Assembly (NCBI RefSeq): GCF_947494875.1
Contig: NZ_CANLWM010000007.1
Coordinates: forward strand, 305,405-369,404
Origin: an uncultured Williamsia sp.
Lineage (GTDB): Bacteria > Actinomycetota > Actinomycetes > Mycobacteriales > Mycobacteriaceae
Reading direction: 5' to 3'
DNA length: 64,000 bases
In this document: piece by piece, positions 1 through 48,850 of the stretch
Numbering within the stretch: the first letter of the stretch is position 1
How the letters are laid out: the number at the start of each line of letters is the position of its first letter
Notes under the pieces: model-generated
Told to the model about the DNA's origin: nothing
The model's database searches: none
The model's input: only the letters and a program-made list of their open reading frames with translations
Translations under genes and position numbers: made by a program

Positions 1-3000
1 CGGCGGCGAGCATCCCGCCGAGCGACCAGCCGAGCAGGTGCACGGGACCGTCGGGGACGAGGTCGCGGATGGTGTCCCGGTGACGTCGTGCGAGGTCACC
101 CAGCGACGCCGCCGCCGTCTCACCGGCCAGGACGGGGTTCTGCAGGCCGTACACAGCGCGATCACCCGAGACGTGCTGCAGCAGCGATGCATACGACCAC
201 GACAGACCTATGGCGGGATGCACGACCACCAGGGGTGCCGGGCGGTCGGCGCGGGGCGAGTCCGTCGCGGGCCGCAACACGATCGCCGGGCTCATGCCCG
301 TCGGCCCGGCGCCCACCTGCACACCGTCGATCCGCCACGCCAGTTCCTCCGGGGTCGACGCGGCGAACACCCAGGCGACCGCGACCTCCACGCCGGTGCG
401 CCGCCGGATCTCGGTCACCGCGGTGGTCGCGGTCAGCGACGTGCCACCGAGGTCGAAGAACCCGTCCGTGGCCGAGAGCGACGGCAGGCCCAGGACGTCG
501 GCGAACACCTCGGCGATCACCGCCTCGGTCCCCGGACGCGGCGCACGACCGGTGCCCGACCGCTCGGCGGGGACGGGCAGCGCCGCGCGATCGATCTTGC
601 CGCTCGGCCCGACGGGGATGGCGTCGACGACGACGACCGACGCCGGCACCATGTGCCGCGGCAGGCTGCGCGCCGCGTGTGCTCGGATGTCCTCCGGCAC
701 GTCCGATCTGCCCGACGCCGGGACCACGTAGCTCACCAGCGAGGCGGCGGCGCCCTCACCCCGCACGAGCGTCACCACCTGGTGGACGCCGGGGTGATCG
801 GCGACGACGGCGTCGATCTCGCCGGGCTCGACGCGGAACCCGCGGATCTTCACCTGGCTGTCGGCGCGGTCGACGTACTCGAGCGTCCCGTCGCGGGTCC
901 AGCGGACCAGGTCGCCGGTCCGGTACATCCGCGACCCGTCACCGCCGTGGGGTGACGCGACGAATCGGGTGGCGGTCAGGCCCGGACGGCCGTGGTACCC
1001 GCGGGCGATCCCGTCGCCGAGCACGTACAACTCTCCGACCACCCCGACGGGCACGGGATGCAGGCGGCGGTCGAGGACAAGGGCCGACTCGCCGCGGTTG
1101 GGCGCACCCATGTCGACGCGCGCGCCCGGTCGCAACGGTGCGCTGAGCGAGGCGAACACGGTGATCTCGGTGGGGCCGTAGGCGTTGAGCAGCGTGCGCT
1201 CGCGCGACCACCGGCGGACCAGGACATCACCGACCGCCTCGCCACCGACCACCACGGTGCGCAGCGTCGGGACCCGGGTGGGGTCGATGCTGCCGAGGGC
1301 GGCCGGTGTGAGGAAGGCGTGGGTCACCGCGCGCTCCTCGAGGGTCTGCGCGAGCGGCGGCCCGCCGTAGACGTCGGTGCCGACGACCGCGGCGGTGGCC
1401 GGTCCGGCGAGGGTCAGGAGCATCTCGAGGACCGACGCGTCGAAACTCGGCGACGAGAAGTGCGCAACGGTCGCGGTCGGTCCGACCCCGGTGGCAGAGC
1501 GGAGTTCGGCGCGCAGACCGGCGAGCCCGCGGTGCGGGACGACGACCCCCTTGGGCAGTCCGGTCGATCCCGAGGTGTAGATGACGTAGGCGGCGGCGTC
1601 CACGGGCATGGCGATGTCCGACAGCGCATCCGCGGACTGCGACGATACGTCGCGCATGGTGGTCGGGTCGTCGGGCACCACCCAGCGGACCGCACCCGGC
1701 AGGGCGTCGACGTGATCGCCCGTCGTCACACCGACCGTCACCCCGCTGTCGTCGAGCATGTGCGCGATGCGGTCCGCGGGATAGAGCGGGTCGACGGGCA
1801 GCCACGCGGCACCGGTCTTCGTGATCGCCCACACGGCAGCGATCGCGTACGCCGAGCGCGGCACCGCCACCGCGACGACGTCGCCGAGCCCGACGCCCAG
1901 TCCGCGGAGGTGGCGGGCCAGTCGCGTGGTGTGCCGGTCGAGGACGCGGTAGGTGATGGGCCCGTCGGCGTCGACCACGGCGATCCCGTCCGGCCGGGCG
2001 TCGACCGCTTCGGCCAGCATCTGCGGGACCGTCCGCGGCTCGACCGCCTCGGGACCGACGACGAGAGCGGACCCCTCCCCGTCGGGGTGGACGGCGATGT
2101 CGCCGACGGCCATCGAGGAGGAGGAACCGTCGGCGACGGTCCTCAGGACGTGCAGGAGGCGATCGGCGAAGGCGTCCACGTCGGCATGGTCGTGGAGATC
2201 CCGGGCATAGGTGATCTGCATGGAACCCGTCGGCGTCCGCGGCGAGAGTCCGCGCACGGTGATCTGCAGGTCGAACTTGGCCGCCCCGGTGTCGATCTCG
2301 CGAGCGGTGACACCGGGGATGCCGTCGACGTCGAGGGCGCCGTCGTCGGCGAGGTCGTGCACCGACAACGCGATCTGCACGAGCGGTACCCGGCCGTTTA
2401 CACGGGCGGGGTTCACCGCAGCGATCACGTCGTCGAACGGGATGTCCGCCATGTCGAGGTCGTCGAGGTCTGCGTCACGAACCCGCGACAAGAGCGCACC
2501 CACCTCGTCGTGCGGCGACACCGCGGTACGGAGAGCGACCGTGTTGACGAACATGCCGACCACGCGGGTGACGTCGGGGTGGTCCCGACCCGCCACGGGC
2601 GTCGCGATCACGAGGTCGTCGCCGACGCCGAGGCGGTGGAGCAGGACGACGAGGGCCGCGTGCACGACGACGAACGGCCCCGCCCGGACCGCCCGCGCCG
2701 CGGCGGCGATCGCGTCCCGCAGTTCGTCGTCGACGCGACGGTCGACGGTAGCGGTCGCCGACGCGCTGGGACGTCGCGGCGCGTCGGTGGGCAAGGTCGT
2801 CTCGGACGGGGCGTCGGCGAGACGCGTCCGCCAGTGGGAGAGCTGCTGCGCGGCGGTCGATCCCGGGTCGTCGACGGAGCCGAGGGCCGCGACCTGACGC
2901 CGCGCGTGGTCCAGGAACGTGACCGGCGCCGTCGGCAGGTCGGGTGTGCTGCCGGTGATCCGCGCGCTGTACGCGGTGAACAGGTCCTCGACGAGGATCG

Positions 3001-6000
3001 GCAGCGACCACCCGTCCGCGGCGATGTGATGCACGACGATCACGAGATCGGTGTGGCCGCTGCGCCGGATCACCGTCACCCGCAGGGGCCATCGCACGGC
3101 GAGATCGAACCCGGCGCGGGCCTGCCGGTGGGTGGTCGCCTCGACGGCGGCGGGATCGGTCACGTCGACGATCTCGAGGACGTCGTCGAGACCGCCTGTG
3201 CCGTCGACCCCGTCGACCGGTTCGACACGTTGCACGGGGTTGCCGTCGACGACGGGGAAGACGGTGCGCAGCGCGGCGTGCCGGGTGACGACATCCCGCC
3301 AGGCCGCCCGCAGGGCACCGAGATCGACGTCGGCGTCGATGCCCAGGACGATCGGGACGTTGTAGGCCGACGACGCCGTGTCGGCGGCCTGGACGATCCA
3401 CATCCGGCGTTGCGCCGGGGCGAGCGGTCCCTCGGTCGCGCCCCCGTCGTGGTCCGGGGTTCGGACGATCTCCCCGACCGCGGGCTGGGCGTCTCCGAGG
3501 GCGGCGGCGAGGGCACCGACCCTCGGGTGGTCGAAGAGATCCCGCACGCGCACCGTGGACCCGGTGGTGTCGGCGAGGGCCGCGACGACCTGCGTCGCGC
3601 CGAGCGAGGTGCCGCCGAGATCGAAGAAGTCGTCGTCGAGGCCGATCGAGCCGCTCTCGACACCGGGGATCGCCGCGGCGAAGGCCACCGCGACCGCCGC
3701 CCCGACCGCCGTGGTCGGTGCGCGAAACGCCGGGCCGGACTGCGCGACCGGCTCCGGCAGGGCCCTGCGGTCCAGCTTGCCGTTGGTCGTCCGCGGCACC
3801 TCGTCGATGACGGTGATGCTCGCGGGGACGAAGTGGCGTGGCAGCCGCGCGGCGACCTGCCGACGCAGCGCGTCCACGTCCAGGTCGACGGCGGGGTCGG
3901 CGGGGACCACCCAGCTGACGAGCGTCGCGTCGGCGCCGGCCCCGTGGACGGCGGTGACCGCCGAGCGCACCTCGTCGCACGCGGCGAGGACAGCGTCCAC
4001 CTCACCGGGTTCGATGCGGAATCCCCGCAGCTTGACCTGCGAGTCGGCGCGACCGAGATAGGTGAGGCGGCCGTGTCGGTCGTGGCGGACGACGTCGCCG
4101 GTGCGGTAGGCCACTCCCCCCGCGCCGTCGGGGTCGGCGACGAAGCGTGTCGCGGTGAGATCCGGCCGGGCCAGATATCCCTGCGCCACACCCCGTCCGG
4201 TGAGGTACAGCTCGCCTGGTGTCCCTGTGGGGACGGGGCGGAGGGTGCTGTCCAGGACGAGGGCGCGCGTGCCCGGCACCGGCGTGCCGAGCGTCACCGG
4301 TCCGCCCGGGTGAATCTCCCCCATCACCGCGACGACGGTCGTCTCGGTGGGGCCGTACGCGTTCAGCATGGTCCGCGTCGCCCCGAACCGTGCGACGAGA
4401 TCCCGCGTCGGCGCCTCGCCTCCGACGGCCACGGTCCGCAGCGACGGCAGCGACACGTCGGGGACGGTCGCCAGCGCGGCGGGGGTGATGAAGGCGTGGG
4501 ACACCTCGCCGGCGCGCAGGACATCCGCGAGTTCGGACCCGCCCACCACCGACGGCGCGACGATCACGAGGGTCGCCGCGGTCTCCAGCGCGAGCAGCAA
4601 CTCCAGCACCGAGGCGTCGAAGCTGGGTGACGCGAAATGCAGGACACGAGAACGACGATCGGTGCCGTAGCGCCGTCGCTGATCGGCGGCGAGTGCCGAG
4701 AGACCGCGGTGGGTCACCGCGACGCCCTTGGGCGTACCGGTCGACCCCGACGTGTAGATCACGTACGCCGGACCGTCCGGTCGGATCGGCCGGACGAGGT
4801 GGCGCGGGGCGATCGCGTCGTCGGACAGGGTCGCGACGAGCTGCGCGGCCGGGGTGTCGTCGTCGACGGCGACCCACGTCACGTCCGCCGGCAACGCCTC
4901 GACGTCGGCGGCACGTGTCAGCCCGATCCGCACCTGCGCGTCGGCCAGCATGTGCGCGACCCGGGGTGCCGGGTAGGCGGGGTCGACGGGGAGGAACGCC
5001 GCGCCGGTCTTGACCACCGCCCATGTCGCGACGAGGGACTCGATGCTGCGCGCGACGGCGATCGCGACCCGATCGCCCGCCCCGACCCCCTGGCCGATCA
5101 ACAGACGGGCCCACCGGTTGGAGGCCTCGTCGAGCTCGCGGTAGGTGATCGCGCGGTCGGCGGCGGGATCGACGGCGGCGAGGCCCCGCGGTGCGGCGGC
5201 AGCAGCGGCCGCGGTCATCTCGGCGAGGGTCCGCACGGGCGGCGCGGCGTCGGCGGCGTCGATCGCGGGGCCGCGATGCCGCTCCGCCTCGGTGAGGACG
5301 CCGAGGTCCCCCACCCGCACGGTCGGGTCGGCGAGGACCTGGTCGACGACGGCGAGGAACCTCTCACCGAGGTCGGCGACCGTCTGGGCGTCGAAGAGGT
5401 CCGCGGCATAGGTGAAGCGCAGCGCCGATCCGGTGACGCGCAGTTCCAGGTCGAACCGCGCTGCGCCGGTGTCGATCTCCCGCGCAACCACTTCCACGTC
5501 GCCGATGTCGACCGGTTCGGGCGCGGTGTCGGCGAAGGCCAGCGCGACGGCGAACAGGGGATGCGAGCCCGCGGAGCGATCCGGTGCGAGCGCCTGGACG
5601 AGATGCTCGAACGGCATGTCGGCGTGACTGAGGGCGCCGATGTCCGCGGCGCCGACACGGTCGACGAGATCGGTGAAGGGCTCGGACCGCGACACCGAGG
5701 TGCGCAGGACGAGGGTCGTCACGAACATCCCGACCAGGTCGGCGAGGGCGGTCGAGGGGCGCCCCGCCACCGGGGTCCCGACGACGACGTCCGCGGGGTC
5801 GCCGGCCAGAGCGACGTCGGGGTCGGTCGACATCCGCGCCAGCAGGGCGGCGAACGCGCTGTGCACCACCATGAACGGGCTGACACCCCGTGCGGCGGCG
5901 AGGCGCCGCACCCCGTCGAGGCGCGCGACACCGAGGTCGGCGTCGACGGTCCCGGCGCGAATGTCCGCGGCGGCGGTGCGGGTCCGGTCGGTCGGCAGGC

Positions 6001-9000
6001 TCGCCCGGGCGGGCAGGTCGGCCAGGGTCTGCGTCCACCACGACAGGAGCTCCGCGATGCGGCTGTCCTCGTCGTCGACGTCGCCGAGCGACTCGGCGAG
6101 CCAGGCCGAGTAGTCGCGATAGTCGACGGGCAGCGGCGTCCAGTCGGGCGCGGACCCGGCTGACCGGGCCGCGTAGGCGGTGGCGATGTCGCGGGCCAAC
6201 GGACCCATCGACCACCCGTCGGCGGCGATGTGGTGGATCGCCAACGCCAGTTCCCACCGCTGATCGCCGCCGTTCTCGGCCATGCGAACGAGGTGTGCAC
6301 GCATCGGCGGGTCGACACGGAGATCGAACGGGTGCCGCGCGAGATCGGTGTGACGCGCCTGCGCGTCGTCGGCGTCGACCGCGTCGAGGACTGGCAGCGA
6401 CCCGACGGCGTCGGCGACGTCGAGCACCCGGGGATGCGGTGTCCCGTCGTGGTCGGGGAACACCGTGCGCAGCGGCTCGTGTCGCGCGACCACGTCGACG
6501 ACGGCCTCACCGAGTGCCGTCGGGTCGACCGCACCACGGAGCTCGACGACGAAAGCGATGGTGTACGAACCGTTGTCGGGTTCGAGACGGTTGAGGAACC
6601 ACAGTCGGCGCTGCGCGGGCGAGCAGACACCCTCGTCGGGCGCCCTGTCGCGATGGACGATCGGCACCACGGAACCGGCGCCGAAGACGTCGTCGCCGGT
6701 CGGGGTGCGCAGCCGGTCACCGAACCGCGCGGCGACGCCGGCGACACTGGGCGTCTCGAACAGCACCCGCACACCGACCCGTTCACCGACCGCGGCCTCC
6801 AGTGCGGCGACCACCGTCGTCGCCATCAGCGACGTGCCGCCGAGGTCGAAGAAGCCGGCGTCGCGGTCGATCTGGTCTGTCCGCAGCCCCAGCGCCGCGG
6901 CGAAGATCTCGGCGACACGGTGTTCGGCGTCGTCGCGCGGTGGGGTCACGGTGACGGGGGTGAGCTCGGGCTCGGGCAGGGCGTGGTGGTCCACCTTGCC
7001 CGACGGCGTGATCGGGATGGCGTCGACCGGCGTGATGCTCTGCGGCACCATGTGTCCGGGCAGCGTCTGCGCGACCGACGTGCGCACCGACGCGCCGTCC
7101 GGGACGCCCTCGTCGGTCTCGCCCACCACCACGTACGACACGAGGCGGTCGTTGCCGTCGGGGCCGGGCGCGGTGGTGGTGACCGCCTCGGCCACGCCGG
7201 GCACCGCGCTGAGGGCGGCGTCCACCTCGCCGAGCTCGATCCGGAATCCCCGGATCTTGACCTGGTCGTCGGCGCGTCCGACGAACTCGAGTTCGGTGTC
7301 CGACGTCCATCGCACGAGGTCGCCGGTGCGGTACATCCGGTCGCCGCGTTCCCCGAACGGGTTGGCCACGAACGCACTCGACGTCCGCGGGTGTCGCTCG
7401 TGATACCCCCGGGCCAGCTGCGGACCGGTCAGGTACAGCTCACCGACCGCACCCGGCGGGACCGGCGAGAGACGTTCGTCGAGGACGAGCACCCCGATCC
7501 CGCGGATCGGTCCGCCGATGGTCAGCGGGTCACCGGGCCGGATCTCGTCGGAGATGGTGGCCACCACGGTCGCCTCGGTGGGGCCGTAGGCGTTGAACAC
7601 CCGGTGCTCGCGGGACCACTCGTGCAGGACCACCGGGTTCGGGGCCTCGCCACCCACCACCACCACCTCGAGGTCCGGCAGGCCGGGCGAGATCGTCGCC
7701 AGCACCGACGGCGTGAGGAACGCATGGGTGATGCGTTCCTTGCGGATCAGTTCCTCGAGGTCGCGCCCACCGACCGTCTCCGGTGGTGCGATCACCATCG
7801 TCGCGGCGGCGCCCGTGGCCATGAGCGTCTCGAGCACCGAGGCATCGAAGCTGGGGGACGCGAACTGCAGTGTGCGACTACCCGGTCCGGCGGTGAACCG
7901 CACCAGCTGCTCGGCGGCGAAGTTCGCGAGTCCGCGGTGGCTCACGACGACGCCCTTCGGCAGGCCGGTCGTGCCCGAGGTGTAGATGAGGTAGGCGGGG
8001 TTGTCGACCGAGATCGGCACGGGCCGTTCGGCGTCCGTCACGGGGTCGGCCGGGTCGGTGTCGACCGCGGCGGCCAGCTCGGCGCAGCGCTCCCCCTGGA
8101 GATCGAGTTCGGCGACGTCGACCGTGTGCGGCACCTCGACGTCCGCGGTGAGGCAGATCCGCGCGCCGGAGTCGGCGAGCATGTGGTCGATCCGATCCAC
8201 GGGATACCGCGGGTCGACGGGGACCCACGCCGCGCCGGCCTTGCTGACGGCCCACATCGCGCACACCCACTCCACCGACCGGGGCATCGCGACGGCGACG
8301 ACGTCCTCCGGGCCGATCCCCATGCCCAGCAGGACACGGGCCAGGGTGGTCGAGCGATGGTCGAGCTCGGCGTAGGTGACGTCCTCGTCGCGGAAACGGA
8401 CCGCGACGGCGTTCGGGTCGACCGAGACCGCGTCGGCCACCATGTCCGCGAACGTCACCGCCCGCCGCGGGGCACGCCCCGTCGCGGGGACGAGCGCGGC
8501 ACGTTCGTGGCGGTGGAGCACCGGGACGTCGCCGATGGCGCGCTCCGGGTCCGCGGACACCCCGCGGGCGATGCGGCGCAGGCGGTCGCCGAGGTCGACG
8601 ACCGTCGCCTCATCGAACAGGTCTGCGGCGTAGGCGATCTCGACGACCACGCCGTCGGGGCGACCCTCGGCGTCGAACCGCTCGATCGCGGTGATCTCGA
8701 GGTCGAACTTCGTGGTGCCCGTCTCGACCGGCTCGGCCTCCGCCTCCAGTCCGGGGAAGTCGAGCTCGACGCGGTGTGCGGCCTCGAGCGCGACGCTCAC
8801 CGCGAACAGCGGGTGTCGGCCCGGGACGCGGGGTGGGTCGACTATCTCCACGACGCGGTCGAACGGCAGGTCGGCGTGGTCGAGGGCGGCGAGATCGACC
8901 TCGCGGCACCGCTCGACCACCGAGGTGAACGAGGCGTGCTTGCTCACCGGCACCCGCAGCGTCGCCGTGTTGACGAACATCCCGACGAGCGCGTCGAGAG

Positions 9001-12000
9001 CGGGGTCGCCCCGGCCGCCGACCGGGGTCCCCACCACGATGTCGTCCTCGCGCGCCAACCGCCGCAGCAGCACCGCGACCAGTGCGTGGACGACCGTGAA
9101 CATCCCGACCTCGGCGTCGGCCGCGATCGCGACGAGCCGGGCGTGGACCGCGGTGTTCAGATCCACCCGCACGCGACCACCGCGGTGCGACCCCACCGCC
9201 GGCCGGCGGCGGTCGACGGGCAGTTCCGTCTCGGCCGGCAGGTGTGCGAGGTGTTCTCGCCAGAACGCGGCCTGGCGGGCCGCGGTCGACGCGGGGTCGT
9301 CGGCGTCGCCGAGACGACTCAGCTGCCAGATAGCGACGTCGGCGTACTGCACCGCCGGCGCGGCTCGGACGGGATCGCGGCCGTCGCGACGGGCGGCGTA
9401 GGCGGCGGCCAGATCGCCGGCGAGGGGGATCAACGACATACCGTCCGCCGCCACGTGGTGCACCACGACCACCAGGCGATGACGCTCGGGACGGGAGGAC
9501 TCCCGCACGAGCGCCGCCCGGATCGGGATCTCGTGCGCGAGATCGAACCCGCGCGCGGCGAACTGCCCGTCGTCGACGTCGCCGACCACGTGCACCACGT
9601 CGGCGGGTGGCTGCTGGATCTCCTGGCGGGGCCCGTCGGCGTCCACCCGGAACACCGTGCGCAGCGGTTCGTGCCGGGCGACGACGTCGTCGACGGCGAG
9701 ACGCAGGGCGTCGACGTCGAGCGGTCCGGTGAACCGCACCAGGAAGGGGATGTTGTACGAACCGTCCGTCTGGTCACCGTGCGCGAGCAACCAGATGCGG
9801 TGCTGCACCGGCGACAGCGGGATGCGGTCCGGCCGGGGAGCGGCGACGAGCCCGTCGGGTCGCGTGTCGTGATGCCACGTCTGCACACCGCGGGATCGCA
9901 GCGCGCGGGCGAGCCGCCGCGGGGTCGGGTCGTCGAAGAGGTCACGGATCCCGACGGGGTGGTCGAGGGCGGCCGAGAGGCGACTCGCCAGTCGGGTGGC
10001 GGTCAGCGAGTTGCCGCCGGCGTCGAAGAAGGAGGTCGTCGCGCCGACCGCGGCCACACCGAGCACGTCGGCGAAGGTCGTCGCGACGCCGCGCTCGAGA
10101 TCGTCGGCGGGAGCGGCGTGGTCGCCCGAGGCGACCGTCGTCCTGCCCGGCGCGGGCAGGGCGCGCCGGTCGAGTTTGCCGTTGGCGGTGGTCGGGAAAC
10201 GGTCGAGGACGACCACCGCGGCGGGGACCATGAACGCCGGCAGGTGCCGGGCCACGGTCGCGCGGACCGTGGCGGGGTCGGGCCGACGGCCGGAGGTCCC
10301 GGTCACGTAGGCGACCAGCATCTGGTCCTCGCCGGACGCGCCGCGGGCGACGACGACCGTGTCCGCGACGCCGTCGACGGCCGACACCGCGGCCTCCACC
10401 TCCCCCGGCTCGATGCGCTGCCCGCGGATCTTGACCTGGAAGTCGCTGCGGCCGAGATAGATCAGCGCCCCGTCGGCGGCGGAGCGGACCAGGTCGCCCG
10501 TGCGGTACATGCGGGTGCCGTCGCCGGACGGATCCGCGACGAACCGGTCGGCGGTGAGGTCGGGCCGCGCGAGATAGCCTCGCGCGAGCTGGATCCCGGT
10601 GAGGTAGAGCTCCCCGGCGATCCCCGGCGGCACCGGGCGGAGTCGGGTGTCGAGGACACGGACCCCGGTGTTCCACACCGGTCGGCCGATCGGCACCGGC
10701 GAGACGGCCGGGTCGATCGCGTCGGCGTGGGTGACGTCGATCGAGGCCTCGGTGGGCCCGTACAGGTTGTGGACGGGCGCGTCGGACAGCTCGGCGAATC
10801 GCGCGACGGTGGCCGTGGAGAGCGCCTCGCCGCTGGTGAACACCATGCGGACGCTCTCGAGTTCACCACCGGAGCCCGCGTCGCCGTCGTCGCCGATGAT
10901 CGTCGCGAAGGTGGTGAGCATCGACGGCACGAAGTGGAGCACGGTGACGCCGAGCGCGGCGATCGCCTGGTAGAGGTACCACGGGTCGCGGTGGCCGTCG
11001 GGCGTGGCGACGGCGAGGGTGGCGCCGGTGGCCGGGGGCCAGAGGAACTCCCACACGGACACGTCGAAGGTGGCGGGGGTCTTCTGCAGCACGACGTCGT
11101 CGGTGCGCAGCCGGTAGCGCCCCTGCATCCAGGCGAGCCGGTTGACGATGCCGGCGTGCGTGATCCCCACGCCTTTCGGCCGTCCCGTGGACCCCGAGGT
11201 GAACAGGACGTAGGCCAGGTCCAGCGGTCGGACGTCCCGGCGGCGACGCACCTGACGCAGCGAGCGAGGGGCGTCGCGTGCGTCGAGGCGGTCGGCGAGC
11301 CCGGGCAGGTCGACGACGACGGTCGGCCGTGCCCCGATCTCACCGATCCGCTGTGCCGCAGCCTGATCGAGGGTGAGCACGAGGACCGGGTCGGCGGTCG
11401 ACACCACGTGGCGCAGACGGTCCTCCGGCTCTGCCGGGTCGATCGGGAGGAACGCGGCCCCGGCCCCGAGCACGGCGAGGATCGCCACGACCTGATCGAT
11501 GCTGCGGGTCAGCATCACACCCACCACGTCACCGGGTCCGACGGCGGCGGCGACGAGGTCGTCGGCGAGCTCGGCGGCGAGACCGTGCAACCGTGCGTGG
11601 TCGAGGTCGCCCCGGTGCTCGCCGTCCGCGTCGGTGGCGACGGCCGCGGGCACACCCGCGGCGATCCCCGCCCGCCGTCCGCGCTCGAGCAGATCCAACA
11701 GCGTCCCGGCATCGACGGCGTGCGTCGTGTTGTCGGCCGCGGCGATCCGGCGGCGTTCGTCGACGGTCGTGGTGTCGAGTCGCGCGAGGGGCGTCGCCCC
11801 GTCGACGGTGACGAACGCCGCGAGACCCGCCAGGATGCGGTCGAGAGCCGCGGCGACCTCGGTCCGCCGATAGCGGCGGGGATTCGCCTCGAGGTCGACG
11901 CGCATCCCGCCGTCGAGTGTCTCGTAGACGTTGAGCGACAGGTCCTCGACCGGTCCGGTGGTCAGGACGTGGACCGTGCCCGCGGTGGCGCCGAAGTCGA

Positions 12001-13300
12001 TCTCGGTGAGGAACAGCATGACGTTGACCATCGGTCCGAAGAAGCCACGGACGACGTCCGTTCCGGTGGTGGCCATCTCCCGGGCGATGTCCTCGTGCCG
12101 ATACCGCTGGTGTAGCAGCGCATCCCGGATGGTCGCCTCGGTGTGCACGAGCAGGTCGTCGACGGTCGCCGCAGGATGCACGTCGAGGACGATCGGCAGC
12201 ACCGTCGAACACATCCCGGCGGACCGGCGGAGGTCGTCGGATGTCCGCGCCGCGACCGGCAGGCTCAGCATCAGCGCGTCCCGACCGGTCAGGGCGGCGA
12301 GATGCGCTGCGACGGCGGCGGTGACCACCGTCGCGGTGCGGACCGACGCCCGGCCGGCCCGCTCGCGCACCGCGTCGACCACGTCGCGACTCGGCGTGCG
12401 GGTCTCGGTGATCGACAGCTCGGCGTCGTCGGTGACCGCCCCGGGGTGCAGCGCGTCGGCCAGGGTCGCGATCTCGGGTGCGCGGGCGACGACCTCGCGC
12501 CAGTGCGCGGCGTCGGCCGTGTGGTCCGCCGACGATCGATGTGCCCGGTCCAGGTCGGAGATCTGGCGCATGGTGAGGGCGTCGACGGGCGGCGCGCGTC
12601 GCACCCCGGTGATCTCGCCGTACCACTGGCCGACGCGGATCAGCATGAGCGCGGCCGCGTACCCGTCGAGGACGATGTGATTGCCGCGGGCGTAGAGGAT
12701 GTCGTGGTCGGGTCCGAGGCGGAGCACCATCATCGACACCAGAGGGTCGGCGACGAGATCGACCGGGGCGGTGCGGTGCAGGTCCATCAGTGCCCGCGCG
12801 GTCCCCGAGGGGTCGGCGTCGTCCCGGAGGTCGACGAGGTCGACGGCCGGCGACAGGTCGTGGTCGACGACGAGCCGGACCGGGAGGTCGGCGTCGGGGT
12901 CGTCCTCGAGACCTTCCGGGGGCGGCGCCTGCGTCGCCGGGACGATGGCCAGAGCCGGCGACTGCATCTCCCGTGTCGTGCGGCGCACGGCGTCCTCGAC
13001 CGCCGAGATGTCCAGTGCAGCAGGGAAGTCGAGGAAGAACGCGATGGACATCGGCGCCTCGGGCGCGAGCTCGTGGGCCAGGTACACCCCTCGTTGCGCC
13101 GCCGTCATCGGCACCGTCTCGAGGCGACGCTCCGCGTCCACGCGACCTCCCACGCCGGATCCACCGGTGTCGTCGTCGCCGTGGGTCGGTGACGAAGGCG
13201 CGGACTCGGCCGGACACCACCGCGGGGGCCTCGGCTGTGAGCGCGCCAGAGCGTCCCGAAAAGCATTGTGAGCCACAGTAACCAGCTCAGTCGTGCCCAC
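1..13300 (-). CDS. Four-module non-ribosomal peptide synthetase (3' end outside window)
   Basis: One uninterrupted frame of about 4,430 residues, with the C-terminus cut off. Domain order, approximate positions: C1 13130-11900, A1 11780-10170, PCP1 10110-9950; C2 9860-8560, A2 8490-6990, PCP2 6920-6740; C3 6640-5330, A3 5190-3770, PCP3 3700-3530; C4 3430-2120, A4 1990-580, PCP4 540-370; a thioesterase begins at about 330 and shows GWSLGG at 8-25. Each A domain has YTSGSTG/FTSGSTG-type A3 and a K in A10 (GKLD, GKVD, GKID); the PCPs read GGNSL or GGTSL. C2-C4 have HHxxADG; C1 reads NHIVLDG and resembles EntF/DhbF-type first condensation domains. Pocket codes read by eye are DVWHFSLIDK for A1 (serine, as in EntF) and DALFVGAVVK, DALFAGAVVK, DALFVGAVFK for A2-A4 (unassigned). 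No epimerase or methyltransferase domain is seen. The start is GTG at 13298-13300 (an in-frame stop lies just upstream); GTG 13274-13276 is an alternative. The product is unknown. Confidence 0.93.
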
Positions 13301-42681: not shown

Positions 42682-42721
42682 TTCTGACACCCCTGGCAAA
42701 TTCTTGTCAGGGGTGTCAGAA
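42682..42721. promoter_or_regulatory. Perfect 14-bp inverted repeat at the TetR start
   Basis: The arms TTCTGACACCCCTG (42682-42695) and CAGGGGTGTCAGAA (42708-42721) are perfect and separated by 12 bases. The right arm reaches the ATG of the TetR gene. The position suits autoregulation; alternatively it is a terminator of the oxidoreductase gene, though no T run follows. A related word TGACCCCTGA is at 42671-42680. Confidence 0.6.
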
Positions 42722-43320
42722 TGGGTCGGGTGAGCACCTCGGTCATCGCTCAGGCGCGGCGTCGACAACTCGTCGAGGCCGCGATCGAGGTGATCGACGA
42801 GGTCGGCGTCGGTGCTGCATCGCTGGTGCAGATCTCCCGACGTGCGGGGGTGAGCCGAGGGGTCATCAATTATCACGTCGCCGGTCGGGCACCGCTGTTC
42901 GAGGCGGTGGTCGAGCATGTCTATGCGCTCGGACGCGAGGTCGTCGCACCCGACACGGAGTCCGCGGCGACAGCGACCGCGGCGATCGCCGCGATGATCC
43001 ACGGCAGCATCGCGTTCTACACCCGGTACCCCCGCGAGATGCGTGTCCTGTCAGCGCTGTTCGTGTCCGACGACCCGGACTCGCCCAACCGATCGGGACA
43101 CCGTGAGCACGCCGACGAGATCGAGCGAGTCGCCGCGATCGTCGAGCGTGGCCACGCCGGCGGCGAGTTCCGAGCCGTCGACGGCCGGCTCGCCGCCGCG
43201 ATGCTGCGCGCCGCGCTCGACGAAGCCCTCGCCCGCATAACCGCCGACGTCGACACCACAGGCCTCGGGGCAGAGATCGAGGCCGCCATGCGCGCGCTCC
43301 TCGGCGCAGACCACCTCTGA
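42721..43320 (+). CDS. TetR family regulator
   Basis: A protein of 199 residues from ATG 42721, with an in-frame GTG at 42730 as an alternative clear of the palindrome. The helix-turn-helix lies at about residues 16-62 (AAIEVIDEVGVGAASLVQIS, then AGVSRGVINYHVAGR). The rest is helical with no recognised ligand motif. It lies 47 bases after the oxidoreductase gene and 33 before the esterase gene in the same direction, so either is a plausible target. Confidence 0.88.
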   Translation: MGRVSTSVIAQARRRQLVEAAIEVIDEVGVGAASLVQISRRAGVSRGVINYHVAGRAPLFEAVVEHVYALGREVVAPDTESAATATAAIAAMIHGSIAFYTRYPREMRVLSALFVSDDPDSPNRSGHREHADEIERVAAIVERGHAGGEFRAVDGRLAAAMLRAALDEALARITADVDTTGLGAEIEAAMRALLGADHL

Positions 43321-43353: not shown

Positions 43354-44967
43354 ATGTCCCACCCGTCGCGAGCCGTGATGGCCGTCGCCGTCGCAGCAAC
43401 ACTGCTCACCGCCGCGTGCGGTTCGGACGACCCGTCGACGCCCTCGTCGTCACCGACGCCCGCCCCCACCGTGGTCACCACCAGCAGCGGGACGCTCACC
43501 GGGGCCGATGTCGGGAACACGCGACAGTTCCTCGGTGTGCGCTACGCACAGCCGCCCACCGGCGAGCGGCGATGGACGCTCCCGCAGGCCGTCGACTCCC
43601 GCGACACACCGGTCGACGCCACCCGACCCGGCGCACCGTGCGAACAGTCGGCACCGCTGCCGGGGTTGCCCGCACCGAGCGAGGACTGTCTGTTCCTGAA
43701 CGTCACGACACCACGGTCGACCGCCCCGGGCAGCCGCCTCCCGGTGATGGTGTGGTGGCACGGCGGCGGCTACACGTCCGGTTCGGGTGCCGCGTACGAC
43801 GCCCAGCGGCTCGCCGACACCGGTGACGTCATGGTGGTCACGGTGAACTACCGACTGGGCATCTTCGGGTACCTCGGTCTGCCGGATCTGCAGGGCGGCG
43901 GCGACTTCGGGCTCGCCGACCAACTCGAGTCCCTGCGGTGGGTGCAGCGCAACGCGGCCGCGTTCGGCGGCGACCCCGACAACGTGACCGTCTTCGGCGA
44001 GTCCGCCGGCGGGATGTCGACCTGTGCCGCGCTGACCTCGCCGTCGGCCCGGGGCCTCATCGACAAGGCCATCGTCTCGTCGGGGTCGTGTGCGCTCGTG
44101 TTCCCGACCGGTGCGCTGTATCCCGGTGTGCCCCAGCAACGGCCGTACGCGTCGGCGCCGGAGGCGGTGGCGACCGGCGTCGACACGGCACGAACGCTCG
44201 GCTGCCAGGGCACCACCGCCGTCGCGTGCCTGCGTGCGCTGCCGGCGACCACGCTGTTGACGCAGAACGAGAATTTCAGCAACACCCTGGCCTACGGGAC
44301 CCCGCTGCTCCCCCGTGATCCTCGCCAGGCCGTCGCCGACGGTGACACCTTGCGCATCCCGATCATCTCCGGCGGCAACCGCGACGAGAACGACGCCTTC
44401 GTCGCCGGCGCTCTCGCGGTGAACCCGTCGGCATTCACGACGGCGTCCTTCCCGGGTGACCTCCGCGCCGCCTACGGCGCACGGTCCGGCGAGGTTGCCG
44501 CGCGATACCCACTGTCCCGCTTCGCCTCGGCGCCGGCGGCCGTGGCACGGACCTTCACCGACGCCGGTTGGGCCTGCCCGACGGTGCGCTCGAACCGGCA
44601 GTACGCGCAGCACGCGCCCGTCTACACCTACGAGTTCTCCGACGAGACCGGCCCGAACGTGAGCGGCGGGTCGTCACCCCAGATCCCGAAGGCCGCGTTC
44701 CACGCGAACGACCTGCCCTACGTCTTCGACCTCGACGGGCGGGACCTCGTCCCCCGGGATCCGCAGGCGGCGTTGTCGCGCACGATGATCGAGTACTGGT
44801 CGTCGTTCGCGCACACCGGCACGCCGACCGCGTCGGGGGCTCCCGCGTGGCCGCGCACCACCCCGGATTCGGCTCCCGTCCTCGGGTTCACCTCGTCCGG
44901 AGTGCGCGTGGTCGACCACGCCACCGACCATCAGTGCTCTTTCTGGTCGGGCGTCAGCCCCAGGTGA
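43354..44967 (+). CDS. Type B carboxylesterase, lipoprotein
   Basis: A protein of 537 residues of the carboxylesterase B fold. A lipobox LTAA-C (Cys22) predicts anchoring outside the membrane. The catalytic triad is visible as Ser217 in GESAGG, Glu345 in GNRDENDAF and His450 in AFHANDLPYVF. The oxyanion loop is WWHGGGY and the family signature EDCLFLNV is present. It hydrolyses carboxylic esters; the substrate is unknown. ATG 43354 has GGGAGG upstream. Confidence 0.93.
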   Translation: MSHPSRAVMAVAVAATLLTAACGSDDPSTPSSSPTPAPTVVTTSSGTLTGADVGNTRQFLGVRYAQPPTGERRWTLPQAVDSRDTPVDATRPGAPCEQSAPLPGLPAPSEDCLFLNVTTPRSTAPGSRLPVMVWWHGGGYTSGSGAAYDAQRLADTGDVMVVTVNYRLGIFGYLGLPDLQGGGDFGLADQLESLRWVQRNAAAFGGDPDNVTVFGESAGGMSTCAALTSPSARGLIDKAIVSSGSCALVFPTGALYPGVPQQRPYASAPEAVATGVDTARTLGCQGTTAVACLRALPATTLLTQNENFSNTLAYGTPLLPRDPRQAVADGDTLRIPIISGGNRDENDAFVAGALAVNPSAFTTASFPGDLRAAYGARSGEVAARYPLSRFASAPAAVARTFTDAGWACPTVRSNRQYAQHAPVYTYEFSDETGPNVSGGSSPQIPKAAFHANDLPYVFDLDGRDLVPRDPQAALSRTMIEYWSSFAHTGTPTASGAPAWPRTTPDSAPVLGFTSSGVRVVDHATDHQCSFWSGVSPR

Positions 44968-44987
44968 CGCGCCGACCGCGCGGGCGT

Positions 44988-45075
44988 GCCGGCTGTCCAC
45001 AACCAACACCGGTCAGCAGCGGAGCGTGCATCGTGCGCGCGGCGATCCTGATCGGTGTCGGTTGTGGACGCCGGC
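44988..45075. repeat. Long imperfect hairpin upstream of the heliorhodopsin gene
   Basis: The arms 44988-45016 and 45048-45075 pair over about 28 positions with two mismatches and one bulged base: outer GCCGGC, then GTCCACAACC opposite GGTTGTGGAC, then ACACCG/CGGTGT. The loop is about 31 bases. It begins 21 bases after the esterase stop, so it may terminate that transcript, but the length and near-perfect pairing are also those of a small degenerate mobile repeat. Only the arms were compared by eye. Confidence 0.6.
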
Positions 45076-45088
45076 GGTCGTGACCGTG

Positions 45089-45106
45089 TCGAGACCCAGG
45101 TCTCGA
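45089..45106. promoter_or_regulatory. Palindrome TCGAGACC-CA-GGTCTCGA
   Basis: Perfect 8-bp arms with a two-base centre lie 62 bases before the heliorhodopsin start, directly after the long hairpin. The size and symmetry suit a repressor operator. A plus-strand TAGCGT at 45155-45160 ends seven bases before the ATG, which would give a leaderless or near-leaderless transcript. Confidence 0.45.
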
Positions 45107-45167
45107 TCTCCCGGCGACGTGGGAAGAGACCTGTACCGACGACCGGGCCGGGCATAGCGTCCACCTC

Positions 45168-45935
45168 ATGACCATCGCGAGCGGCATCACCGACGAGCGC
45201 CTGGCTGGACTGTGGCGGTGGAACATCGGGCTCACCGTCCTGCACGCCGCACAGGCCATCGCCGTGCTGGTCCTCGCGAACGGCTTCTCGATCACCGTCA
45301 CGTCGACGTTCCCGGTCGGTCCCCCGGGAACCGCGCCTCCGGCGCCAGAGAAGCTGTTCGACGTCTCGATCGGCGTCGCGATCGCGGTGTTCCTCGCGCT
45401 CGCCGCCGTCGACCACCTCGTCACCGCGACGGTCGGGCGACGGCTCTACGAGAACGACCTGCGGCGCGGAATCAACCGCTTCCGGTGGATCGAGTACTCG
45501 GTCAGTGCGTCGATCATGATCGTGCTCATCGCCTTCTATTTCGGCGTCACCAACATCGACGCGGTGGTCGCGGTGTTCGGCGCGAACGTGGCGATGATCC
45601 TGTTCGGTTGGTTGCAGGAGAAGGCCAACCCGCCGGGCCGCGACCACACGACGATGCTGCCGTTCTGGTTCGGCTGCGTCGCGGGCGTCGTGCCGTGGAT
45701 CGTCATCGTCGTCAACTTCGTCGGCGCGGGGAGCGGCGTCCCCGGGTTCGTCGTCGGGGTGTTCGTCTCCCTGCTGATCTTCTTCTCGACGTTCGCGGTC
45801 AACCAGTGGCTGCAGTATCGCGAGATCGGCCCCTGGCGCAGCTACGCGTTCGGCGAGAAGACATACCTGGTGCTCAGCCTGGTCGCGAAGTCACTGCTCG
45901 CATGGCAGATCTTCGGCGGATCGCTGGCCGGGTGA
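45168..45935 (+). CDS. Heliorhodopsin
   Basis: A protein of 255 residues with seven membrane segments. Lys241 in LSLVAKSLLAWQ is the retinal Schiff-base lysine, at the same number as in the type protein 48C12. Glu109 in RWIEYSVSASI matches the counterion, and His26 and His83 match the conserved inner histidines. The N-terminus is expected to face the cytoplasm, inverted relative to type 1 rhodopsins. The family is light-sensing or enzyme-modulating rather than ion-pumping in most reports. No retinal-forming gene (lycopene cyclase, carotenoid oxygenase) is in the window. Neighbours are an esterase upstream and a Pip-like membrane protein 107 bases downstream in the same direction. Confidence 0.95.
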   Translation: MTIASGITDERLAGLWRWNIGLTVLHAAQAIAVLVLANGFSITVTSTFPVGPPGTAPPAPEKLFDVSIGVAIAVFLALAAVDHLVTATVGRRLYENDLRRGINRFRWIEYSVSASIMIVLIAFYFGVTNIDAVVAVFGANVAMILFGWLQEKANPPGRDHTTMLPFWFGCVAGVVPWIVIVVNFVGAGSGVPGFVVGVFVSLLIFFSTFAVNQWLQYREIGPWRSYAFGEKTYLVLSLVAKSLLAWQIFGGSLAG

Positions 45936-45983
45936 CGTGACATCGCCGGCAGATTTTCGTTGTCGGCGGGAATTAGTTGGGCA

Positions 45984-46012
45984 TTGCACGTAGTTGTAGT
46001 ACGCATTCATAC
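45984..46012 (+). promoter_or_regulatory. Candidate promoter of the Pip-like gene
   Basis: TTGCAC (45984-45989) and TCATAC (46007-46012) are 17 bases apart in an AT-rich gap between the heliorhodopsin gene and the next gene, with the start codon 31 bases downstream. The match is only moderate. Confidence 0.35.
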
Positions 46013-46042
46013 CTCCCCTGATCGAGACGAAGGGATCCTGCG

Positions 46043-47485
46043 ATGCTCTCCTCGCTGACCACACGCTGGCGTGCGCACTACAGCAAGCTGCCCCCGGCGC
46101 TGCAGCTGATCGGCCTCCAGCTGTGGCTGCCGGTCTTCTTCCTCATCATGTTCAGCTTCTGCTACCTCGCGGCGTTCCACTCGCCGAAGATCCACGACGC
46201 CCCGGTCGCCGTCGTGAACTCGCCGGCCGCGTCGCAGTTCACCGACCGTTTCAGCCAGGCGTCCCCGGGCATGTTCGACTTCCGGTTCGTCCAGGACCAG
46301 GCGGACGCCACCGAGGCCGTCCGGGATGGCAGCGCCGCCGCGGCGGTGACCTTCCCGACGACGCGCTCGGGCGCGCCGGAGGTGACCATCGCCAGCGCCC
46401 ACCAGTTCCAGGCGGCGCAGCTGATGAAGTCGACCTTCACCACGGCCTTCAGCCAGGCGGGCACCGCACCGAAGATCACCGACATCGCCCCCCTGCCGTC
46501 GGGTGACTCCTACGGCCTCGGTGCGATGTACCTGATGCTCTCGTGGTGCATCGGCGGGTACATGGTCGCGATGTTCATCGGCATGATGGGCAACCCGCTG
46601 AGCCACCTCACCCGCGTCGGGATCCTCGCCGGTGGAGCACTCGTGGCGTCGGTCATCACGAACGTGCTCGCGTCACTCGTGATCGGCGTCTACGACAGCG
46701 CGCACATCTGGCAGATGATGGGGATCTCGTTCCTGTGGATCCTCGCGATCGGCCTGGCGGTGAACGGTCTCGCATACTTCTTCGGGCGCTTCATCACGGC
46801 GATCGCGCTGACGATGTTCGTCTTCCTCTCCATCCCGTCGTCGGGCGCGGCCTACCCGGTGTGGATGGTCCCGCGGATCTTCGGCGACCTGAACCCTCTG
46901 GTCGTCGGGCACGGCATCACCGAGATGATCAAGCGCGTCCTCTACGGCGTCGGCGAGCCCTATTGGCAGCCGTTCCTGCTGATGGCCGGATACGCGGTAC
47001 TCGGCGTCGTCACGATGATCGTCGGCAAGCGGTGGCGCGAGAGCAAGGAGTTCGACCGCATCCTCGCCGGCAAGACGACGATGATGGCGGCCGCCCAGGG
47101 CGCGATGGCCGAGAAGGCCATGGCCGATCGTGAGCGCATCCTCGCCCAGCACGGCCTCGACTCCGAGTCGGACGACGACACCCAGGGTGATGACGATGCG
47201 ACGGGCAGCCGCGACGACGGCGGTGTCGCCGCATCGAGCGACCGCGGACCGTCGCGCGACCGTGTCGCGGCCGGCAGCAGGCAATCGCACTACTCCATCG
47301 TCGACCTCGAGTCCGACTTCGGCGGTGACCCGATGCTCGGCGGAAACGGTCTGGGCCGCAGCGGGACCGGTGGATCGCTCGCGACCGACGAACTGGAACA
47401 CCAGGTGCGCGAGATGATCAACCGCCGCCGGGTCGTCGACGCGTCGACGAACGGGCACTCGTCGAACGGCACGGCGCACCACTGA
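46043..47485 (+). CDS. YhgE/Pip-like (ABC-2 superfamily) membrane protein
   Basis: A protein of 480 residues. One N-terminal membrane segment (LWLPVFFLIMFSFCYLA) is followed by an outer domain beginning APVAVVNSPAA, then five segments (about 160-335), the layout of the YhgE/Pip and DUF3533 group of ABC-2-type permeases. The C-terminal 130 residues are cytoplasmic, charged and low in hydrophobicity, with an Asp-rich run (DSESDDDTQGDDD). An ATPase partner is not present. The role is unknown; the group includes ESX-like exporters' partners and phage receptors. The ribosome site is AAGGGA. Confidence 0.75.
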   Translation: MLSSLTTRWRAHYSKLPPALQLIGLQLWLPVFFLIMFSFCYLAAFHSPKIHDAPVAVVNSPAASQFTDRFSQASPGMFDFRFVQDQADATEAVRDGSAAAAVTFPTTRSGAPEVTIASAHQFQAAQLMKSTFTTAFSQAGTAPKITDIAPLPSGDSYGLGAMYLMLSWCIGGYMVAMFIGMMGNPLSHLTRVGILAGGALVASVITNVLASLVIGVYDSAHIWQMMGISFLWILAIGLAVNGLAYFFGRFITAIALTMFVFLSIPSSGAAYPVWMVPRIFGDLNPLVVGHGITEMIKRVLYGVGEPYWQPFLLMAGYAVLGVVTMIVGKRWRESKEFDRILAGKTTMMAAAQGAMAEKAMADRERILAQHGLDSESDDDTQGDDDATGSRDDGGVAASSDRGPSRDRVAAGSRQSHYSIVDLESDFGGDPMLGGNGLGRSGTGGSLATDELEHQVREMINRRRVVDASTNGHSSNGTAHH

Positions 47486-47526: not shown

Positions 47527-48015
47527 ATGGACGACCTGGCCGCGCGTTCCGGCGATCCCGGACACCCCGTACGGCGTCGGATCGACGACCTCATCGACGA
47601 GCACCGTGACCACCTCGCAGAGAGCCTCGACGGGCTGACCGACGAGGAGGCACGGCGTTCGCTGGTGCCGTCGCGAACCACGCTTCTGGGACTGCTGAAG
47701 CACGTCACCTTCGCCCAACGCATCTGGTACGACCAGGACATCACCGGTCGCTCGCGCGCGGACATGGGTCTGCCCGAGGCCGCCGAGGACTCCTGGATCC
47801 TCGACGACACCGACACCATCGAGTCGGTGTTGTCGGGATTCCTCACCGTCTGCGCGGAATCCCGACTGGCTATCGCGTCCATGGGTCTCGACACGATCGT
47901 CACCGGACGCCGACCGCATCCCCTGTGGGACTCGCACCTTCACGTCCTGCGCGAGTTGGCCCACCACTGCGGCCACGCCGACATCCTCCGCGAACAGATC
48001 CTCGCCGCCCGCTGA
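47527..48015 (+). CDS. DinB-like (DUF664) protein
   Basis: A protein of 162 residues of the DinB/DUF664 four-helix family. Metal-ligand histidines are visible: His59 in GLLKHVTFAQ and the pair in ELAHHCGHADILREQ near the C-terminus. Actinobacterial members include mycothiol-dependent S-transferases and enzymes of unknown substrate. It is a single gene 41 bases after the Pip-like gene, followed directly by the 21-bp repeat array. Confidence 0.85.
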   Translation: MDDLAARSGDPGHPVRRRIDDLIDEHRDHLAESLDGLTDEEARRSLVPSRTTLLGLLKHVTFAQRIWYDQDITGRSRADMGLPEAAEDSWILDDTDTIESVLSGFLTVCAESRLAIASMGLDTIVTGRRPHPLWDSHLHVLRELAHHCGHADILREQILAAR

Positions 48016-48018
48016 CCA

Positions 48019-48162
48019 CGCCGAGCGGGCGGAAACCCCTCGCCGAGCGGGCACCAGATCCCGTCGAGCGTGCACCAGATCGCGTCGAGCGTGCACCAGA
48101 TCCCGTCGAGCGTGCACCAGATCCCGTCGAGCGTGCACCAGATCGCGTCGAGCGTGCAGTCG
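48019..48162 (+). repeat. 21-bp tandem repeat array, left of methyltransferase
   Basis: Five full units of the form GTCGAGCGTGCACCAGATC plus two variable bases lie at 48061-48081, 48082-48102, 48103-48123, 48124-48144 and, partly, 48145-48162. A looser copy (CGCCGAGCGGGCACCAGATC) is at 48041-48060 and a decayed one at 48019-48040. The period is 21 bases, keeping one reading frame. The array runs into the first codons of the methyltransferase gene. Confidence 0.9.
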
Positions 48163-48164
48163 TA

Positions 48165-48746
48165 CTGCCTCGCGTCATCGACATCGCGCTGGGTCGCCAC
48201 GTGGTCGATCTACGCGCACAGGTGTGCCGCGGGCTCCAGGGCGTGGTCCTCGAGGTCGGGTTCGGCACCGGACCGAACATCCCCTTCTACCCACCGACGC
48301 TCACCCGGGTGCTCGCCGTCGAACCGTCGTCCGGCGCACGCGGACTGGCCGCCGACAGGATCGCCACGTCGCCGGTGCCCGTCGAGTTCGTCGGCCTCGA
48401 CGGTGCGCGGATCGACCTTTCAGACGCGTCCGTCGACTGCGTCCTCAGCACCTGGACGCTGTGCACGATCCCTGACGTCGACGCCGCGGTCGCCGAGATG
48501 CACAGGGTGCTGCGCCCTGGCGGCGCAGTCCACTTCGTCGAACACGGCGTGTCCCCGCGCCCGTCCACCGCCCGGTGGCAGAGACGGATCGAGCCCGTGT
48601 GGGGTGCGGTCGCCGGCGGATGCCATCTCACGCGGGACGCGCCGGACCTCCTGCGGGCGCATGGATTCGAGCCCCACGAGGTCGCCGTCGTCCACAAGGG
48701 GCCGGACCTCGTCGCGCGGATGTCCGTCGGGACCGCGCGCCGCTGA
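48165..48746 (+). CDS. Class I SAM-dependent methyltransferase, start uncertain
   Basis: About 193 residues from CTG 48165, or 181 from GTG 48201. Motif I is VVLEVGFGTGPN, followed by the acidic AVEP strand, the VDCVLSTWTLCTIPDV loop and a LRPGGAVHFVEHG motif, as in small Methyltransf_11 enzymes. Family members normally begin with a short Met-led peptide before LPRVIDIALG; here that peptide is replaced by the in-frame 21-bp repeats and no ATG or GTG precedes LPRV within 140 bases. The gene may start at CTG, use GTG 48201 with a shorter head, or be expressed poorly. The substrate is unknown. Confidence 0.75.
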   Translation: MPRVIDIALGRHVVDLRAQVCRGLQGVVLEVGFGTGPNIPFYPPTLTRVLAVEPSSGARGLAADRIATSPVPVEFVGLDGARIDLSDASVDCVLSTWTLCTIPDVDAAVAEMHRVLRPGGAVHFVEHGVSPRPSTARWQRRIEPVWGAVAGGCHLTRDAPDLLRAHGFEPHEVAVVHKGPDLVARMSVGTARR

Positions 48747-48756
48747 CCGTCGGCAC

Positions 48757-48850
48757 GCTCGGAGAGATCTGGTGCCCGCTCGGCGAGATCTGGTGCCCGC
48801 TCGGCGAGATCTACCGCACGGTCGGCGGGATCTGATGCACGCTCGGGGAG
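48757..48850 (-). repeat. 21-bp tandem repeat array, right of methyltransferase, inverted
   Basis: Units at 48757-48777, 48778-48798, 48799-48819, 48820-48840 and a half unit to 48850. The commonest word is GCTCGGCGAGATCTGGTGCCC. Read on the minus strand it matches the left array at about 18 of 21 positions. The array ends exactly at the stop codon of the alcohol dehydrogenase gene. Confidence 0.9.

Follow-up and report, generated by a model that had tools for sequence, protein, structure and literature searches.

Judged by its sequence, the product of positions 45168-45935 of the window (the whole 64-kb stretch of DNA analyzed here, C7:305405-369404 of the genome) is a genuine, canonical actinobacterial heliorhodopsin (HeR). 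It is likely that this protein is supplied with retinal in trans, is made from its own transcript and has a sensory or regulatory role exerted on a client encoded elsewhere, and that the ABC-2-type ("Pip-like") membrane protein encoded next to it is not that client. The locus includes the following features:

42721-43320, + strand: TetR-family regulator, 5' of the esterase; the two are at the locus in five of eight Williamsia genomes
43354-44967, + strand: carboxylesterase-family lipoprotein (COesterase, 351.5 bits), upstream neighbor of HeR
45090-45105, + strand: palindrome CGAGACCCAGGTCTCG upstream of HeR, with perfect 7-bp arms (CGAGACC and GGTCTCG) around CA
45155-45160, + strand: TAGCGT, a hexamer resembling a −10 box, separated from the HeR ATG by exactly 7 nt
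45168-45935, + strand: HeR gene, 255 amino acids, ATG start, with profile and PDB matches
45968-46006, + strand: box upstream of the Pip-like gene (GGGAAT...TAGTTGT...), aligned before all eight Williamsia counterparts
46043-47485, + strand: ABC-2-type ("Pip-like") membrane protein, 480 amino acids, downstream neighbor, judged not to be a dedicated HeR partner

The heliorhodopsin protein

The HeR reading frame begins at 45168 under the rule that a frame starts at the first ATG, GTG, or TTG after a stop. Its product matches Pfam PF18761 (Heliorhodopsin) at 342.4 bits (cut-off 26.7; 1.6e-102), with residues 15-253 covering the full length of the profile (1-242 of 242), and NCBIfam NF038020 at 290.2 bits (cut-off 100); it has no match to PF01036 (type-1 Bac_rhodopsin) at E 0.01 and is not placed among the type-1 rhodopsins. 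A phmmer search of the PDB (E 0.001) returned six distinct sequences, 9ljj, 6su3 (48C12), 6uh3, 6is6, 7clj, and 9vfc, all six of them heliorhodopsins. The original prediction that this is a heliorhodopsin is borne out by these profile and structure-database matches. It had also named Lys241, Glu109, His26, and His83 as residues shared with the type heliorhodopsin; all four are present and lie opposite K, E, H, and H in the PDB alignments. From established knowledge of the family, we take K241 to be the Schiff-base lysine in the last helix, E109 the counterion, and H26 and H83 residues near the pocket. HeR thus likely binds retinal, as had been expected, on the strength of its family membership and pocket residues. 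A crude hydropathy analysis gives six hydrophobic stretches, one of which is 56 residues long and so is probably two helices; by homology with the family, seven helices and an inverted topology with a cytoplasmic N-terminus would be expected. The likeness to 48C12 (PDB 6su3, 6uh3, 9ljj) extends over HeR residues 12-253 (E about 1e-69) and includes the same Schiff-base lysine, counterion glutamate, and two histidines, but the genomic setting differs.

The gene is the single heliorhodopsin match in the 4.77-Mb genome, whose host genus is Williamsia; the nearest named relatives, at 96% identity, are W. serinedens and W. deligens. Three of the species share 95-96% identity, and values across the genus are 79-87%. 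A tree was built from 55 heliorhodopsins after L014, L074, L064, and L047 (duplicate or partial) and L072 and L067 (too short) had been left out. It places the six Williamsia sequences together with support 100/99; the tree program warned of long branches for L073 and L068, both outside this group. One genome in the tree, G200, carries two heliorhodopsins (L017 and L023) from different parts of it.

The patchy distribution of HeR, which is found in 12 of 301 family genomes and is missing from two of eight Williamsia, might suggest a decaying or silent gene that is a chance survivor of horizontal transfer. This is highly improbable: the reading frame and pocket residues are intact, and the identities given above, the single well-supported Williamsia clade, and the conserved promoter-like element described below argue for selection on the gene.

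The neighboring ABC-2-type membrane protein

HeR lies, as originally described, between a lipoprotein esterase and a close, co-directional ABC-2 membrane protein; all three genes are on the + strand, with gaps of 200 bp from esterase to HeR and 107 bp from HeR to the Pip-like gene. The downstream protein matches PF12698 (ABC2_membrane_3) at 53.5 bits, above the cut-off of 31.6, so that the ABC-2 part of its earlier description holds, whereas the label "Pip-like" finds little backing, since TIGR03061 (pip_yhgE_Nterm) scores 20.8 bits where the cut-off is 96.15 and the protein is not placed in the YhgE/Pip family. The large charged cytoplasmic tail noted earlier can be refined to residues 339-480, which include 15 K/R and 24 D/E in 142. 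A sequence search of the PDB gave no match up to E 1. In a Foldseek search with an AlphaFold model (mean pLDDT 64.8, pTM 0.56), the three matches below E 0.001 are to a single ABCH transporter (TM-scores 0.21-0.30), and ABCG and Wzm chains match more weakly; this modest model is consistent with an ABC-2-type membrane domain and is used solely as support.

The original prediction held that the two neighbors could form a light-responsive membrane unit, and there is a precedent in OcHeR and OmrDE for a heliorhodopsin acting on an ABC transporter (accessible text of PMC11109279). The close, co-directional arrangement agrees with such a unit, and HeR is directly adjacent to and co-directional with the Pip-like gene in five of the six HeR-positive Williamsia genomes. 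In the genome of the window (G000) and in G002, HeR lies between the esterase and the Pip-like gene (with ∼0.84 kb between esterase and HeR in G002), and in G001, G005, and G007, where the TetR-esterase pair is absent from the locus, the order is IOR-HeR-Pip. In the sixth, G004, the order is IOR-HeR-TetR-esterase-Pip and HeR is two genes away. The Pip-like counterpart is at the same locus in all eight Williamsia genomes (55-89% identical in the seven others), and HeR is in only six; in the HeR-less G003 and G006 the gene order at the locus is IOR-TetR-esterase-Pip, followed by SucD-SucC, and there is no HeR match. Either IOR-TetR-esterase-Pip or IOR-HeR-Pip could be the ancestral arrangement in Williamsia, and gain and loss of HeR both fit.

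Homologs of the Pip-like protein that are 57-63% identical occur in G013, G242, and G070, genomes without an HeR match. When 54 rows of HeR loci were searched (frames of at least 100 amino acids, E up to 10) with a profile of 11 Pip-like sequences, matches came from Williamsia loci only (7 of 54 rows, from 6 genomes), with no homolog at the 47 HeR loci of other genera, some of which are cut by contig ends. Conservation of the neighbor pair, by which its significance was to be judged, therefore extends to adjacency within most of the HeR-positive Williamsia and is not seen in G004 or at the 47 loci of other genera. The two proteins also differ sharply in divergence between G007 and G000, HeR being 87% identical and the Pip-like protein 55%, a discordance that is suggestive only, as read without a rooted species tree. 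Finally, each of the two genes has its own conserved upstream element (below), and the eight neighborhood proteins scanned include no ATPase domain, unlike the OmrDE case. A light-regulated HeR/Pip-like unit is thus quite unlikely, and HeR and the Pip-like gene as a conserved pair are rejected on the basis of the HeR-less loci, the loci of other genera, and the separate upstream elements. Because sister species keep the Pip-like gene without HeR, its product is probably not a dedicated HeR partner, and the gene is probably an HeR-independent resident of the locus rather than a client. The upstream esterase is no better a partner, since it is 200 bp away and is missing at three of eight Williamsia loci.

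Two other features of the window were seen. A 21-bp tandem repeat forms two related arrays in opposite orientation (48044-48158 and 48753-48850), one inside and one just after a methyltransferase ORF (47925-48746), and an open frame of ∼4,430 amino acids lies at the left edge (2-13300, − strand).

Upstream elements and transcription

Each of the six Williamsia HeR loci contains TAGCGT-N7-ATG exactly once, always at the HeR start (both strands searched, over 64 kb for the window and 19 kb for the five other loci), although the rest of the DNA upstream of HeR looks unlike between G000/G001/G005, G002, G004, and G007. In the window, TANNNT at a spacing of 6-8 precedes 2 of the 40 called genes, HeR and the gene at 48851. 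By eye, no ribosome-binding site can be made out before HeR. In keeping with a pattern of actinobacterial biology, TAGCGT-N7-ATG presumably represents a leaderless SigA-type promoter, and HeR is probably transcribed on its own as a leaderless mRNA from this element. Against this, a scan of 44900-46150 for the sigma-70 consensus found no promoter, and a terminator scan of the same segment found one terminator-like site, on the other strand and near chance, and none between HeR and the Pip-like gene; RNA folding of the gap between them gave nothing (z −1.18). Given the co-directional adjacency in five of six genomes and the lack of a visible terminator between the genes, some read-through and a facultative interaction are possible.

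Outside Williamsia, TANNNT at a spacing of 5-9 precedes HeR in 6 of 51 rows and TAGCGT-N7 in none of the 51, so a leaderless promoter was rejected as a trait of all heliorhodopsins; three partially matching loci were skipped in this comparison, and L017 and L047 are apparently the same gene. No report linking a heliorhodopsin with leaderless transcription was found in the literature searched.

The box before the Pip-like gene surrounds an invariant TAGTT, 45-52 nt from the start codon, irrespective of the gene that lies upstream, and is weakest in G007; it is present in the two HeR-less genomes and in the one where HeR is not adjacent. The palindrome upstream of HeR is found in G000, G001, and G005 and was not found in the G002, G004, and G007 loci; it is a possible regulator site.

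Neighbors of other actinobacterial heliorhodopsins

Genes within four of HeR in the 54 rows were clustered. Among the 45 largest clusters, those present in at least three rows were mostly Williamsia-wide or family-local. Three of them crossed families: one, seen in 11 rows, has an acyl-CoA-synthetase-like member (as read from the sequence) and varies in place and strand; a second is a zinc-type alcohol dehydrogenase, encoded on the opposite strand in two Williamsia rows and one Streptomyces row; and a third, in 3 rows, looks spurious. Inspection by eye of the nearest HeR neighbors in 50 rows (L014, L064, L072, and L074 left out as duplicate or partial) revealed no common gene, and 17 co-directional neighbors in this listing lie within 80 bp of HeR. 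A partner shared across actinobacterial HeR loci was accordingly discarded, a soft negative, since gene calling here is crude at high GC content and yields some spurious genes.

Retinal supply and co-occurrence

The original prediction noted, rightly, that no retinal-producing gene lies near HeR and that the chromophore would come from elsewhere in the genome or from outside; the suggested genome-wide search for a carotenoid oxygenase and a lycopene cyclase makes supply from elsewhere in the genome possible, with candidate enzymes on C1, C6, C3, and C9. A beta-carotene dioxygenase (BCD; 117 bits in the genome, 116 bits for the called gene) lies on C1, ∼330 bp from a type-1 rhodopsin match (100 bits) on the same strand, which is the genome's one PF01036 match. 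An RPE65-family oxygenase is on C6 (359 bits), and a phytoene synthase (230 bits) is on C9, close to genes for a polyprenyl synthase and for a desaturase-like protein with an amine-oxidase fold. The lycopene cyclase on C3 (177 bits, positions 2-359 of 380) was found with a profile that is unspecific by itself, since it also matches in 10 of 14 control genomes. We infer that BCD, the RPE65-family oxygenase, phytoene synthase, and lycopene cyclase may jointly feed HeR.

The type-1 rhodopsin/BCD pair lies at L010 7947-9937 (− strand; about 251-253 kb of contig C1). Helix C of this rhodopsin, D..T..E, looks proton-pump-like by eye, and its best PDB match is the cryorhodopsin CryoR2 (1.6e-36); by our reading of that alignment, a serine stands opposite the arginine characteristic of the cryorhodopsin group (accessible text of PMC12227055). 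A MarR-SpoIIE fusion gene divergent from the pair (L010 10161-11810, + strand) could regulate it. G004, G005, and G007 have a different, higher-scoring type-1 rhodopsin that is divergent from BCD rather than on the same strand.

Among the 301 family genomes, HeR is found in 12, BCD in 6, and a type-1 rhodopsin over the cut-off in 7, with type-1 matches under it in two more. All six BCD genomes and six of the seven type-1 genomes are HeR-positive, on the assumption, indicated by their shared labels, that the same 301 genomes underlie the three counts. With kinship ignored, Fisher's test for BCD-HeR co-occurrence gives p about 1e-9 (0.0004 without Williamsia), and by genus, kinship again ignored, the three BCD genera are all among the 5 HeR genera of 31 (p 0.002). 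This overlap could mean that HeR assists a module of type-1 rhodopsin and BCD to which it is not linked on the chromosome, perhaps by keeping retinal use in balance or by serving the pump as a light sensor. Such a role is unlikely: 6 of the 12 HeR genomes have neither BCD nor a type-1 rhodopsin, and in G248 a type-1 rhodopsin occurs in the absence of both HeR and BCD. A common need for retinal accounts for the association without direct interaction, and the genomes are related, so the counts are not independent.

HeR genes without an evident retinal source also occur within the genus. RPE65 matches among the eight Williamsia genomes searched are confined to G000 and G004, and W. deligens (G001, L012) and W. 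herbipolensis (G002, L014) have an intact HeR that retains TAGCGT-N7-ATG and no BCD or RPE65 match. These two suggest a further reading, in which HeR of this lineage could run on retinal from outside the cell and might capture or sense retinal. BCD would then have been gained only where HeR was already present, as it is in all six BCD genomes; we regard this reading as decidedly doubtful.

Proposed role and comparison with known systems

We favor retinal supply in trans and a distant client for HeR. Retinal would be bound to K241 as a protonated Schiff base with E109 as its counterion, and by analogy with the family the protein would absorb green light and undergo a slow photocycle without pumping ions. 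HeR would be transcribed alone, probably as the leaderless mRNA discussed above. Beta-carotene would be made and cleaved by enzymes encoded elsewhere (the lycopene cyclase, the BCD beside the type-1 rhodopsin, and the RPE65-family oxygenase) and the retinal delivered to HeR in trans. Light would then alter the cytoplasmic face of HeR, which would modulate a client protein encoded elsewhere in the genome, a sensory or regulatory role. Thirteen other heliorhodopsins absorb at 530-556 nm (accessible text of PMC7807009), and there are regulatory precedents, as far as the available texts go, in glutamine synthetase (PMC9529153) and the OmrDE ABC transporter (PMC11109279).

Both precedents resemble the locus in part. 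As in the window, the OcHeR gene lies near a gene for an ABC-transporter-type membrane domain, but there the genes for the OmrDE half ABC transporters precede helR in what is predicted to be a shared operon (accessible text of PMC11109279), and here the ABC-2-type protein is downstream, has its own upstream box, and has no adjoining ATPase gene, so HeR falls outside the class with an ATPase-bearing ABC transporter in the HeR operon. AbHeR is also actinobacterial, and its model of regulation acts through cytoplasmic loops on glutamine synthetase (accessible text of PMC9529153), whereas no member of the glutamine synthetase family is among the eight neighborhood proteins scanned. According to the portion available, PMC11109279 predicts 38.6% of helR genes to be in an operon with neighbors and lists ten HeR partner groups, including alpha/beta hydrolase and ABC transporter; its main text, as available, mentions neither "ABC-2" nor "Williamsia", and that of PMC8612252, which also surveys HeR neighbors, is free of the terms "YhgE", "ABC", and "Williamsia". 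In the literature searched, a Williamsia rhodopsin appears in PMC9529153 only, where a supplementary figure legend in the part available names the W. herbipolensis protein 208HeR (L027/G002) as a predicted heliorhodopsin and the available text gives it no function. That protein, from the same genus, is 79% identical to HeR of the window, and its genome, unlike that of the window, has no BCD or RPE65 match. HeR described here is a further member of a known family.

Adjacency has been a main source of proposed heliorhodopsin functions, and here comparison within a genus separates HeR from its neighbor and thus removes a tempting false partner. The useful additions to knowledge are this negative evidence on the Pip-like neighbor and the retinal-pathway genes located away from HeR. 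Williamsia is a genus whose isolates naturally have or lack HeR, BCD, RPE65, and type-1 rhodopsin, and this natural presence and absence makes both the role of HeR and the source of its retinal testable.
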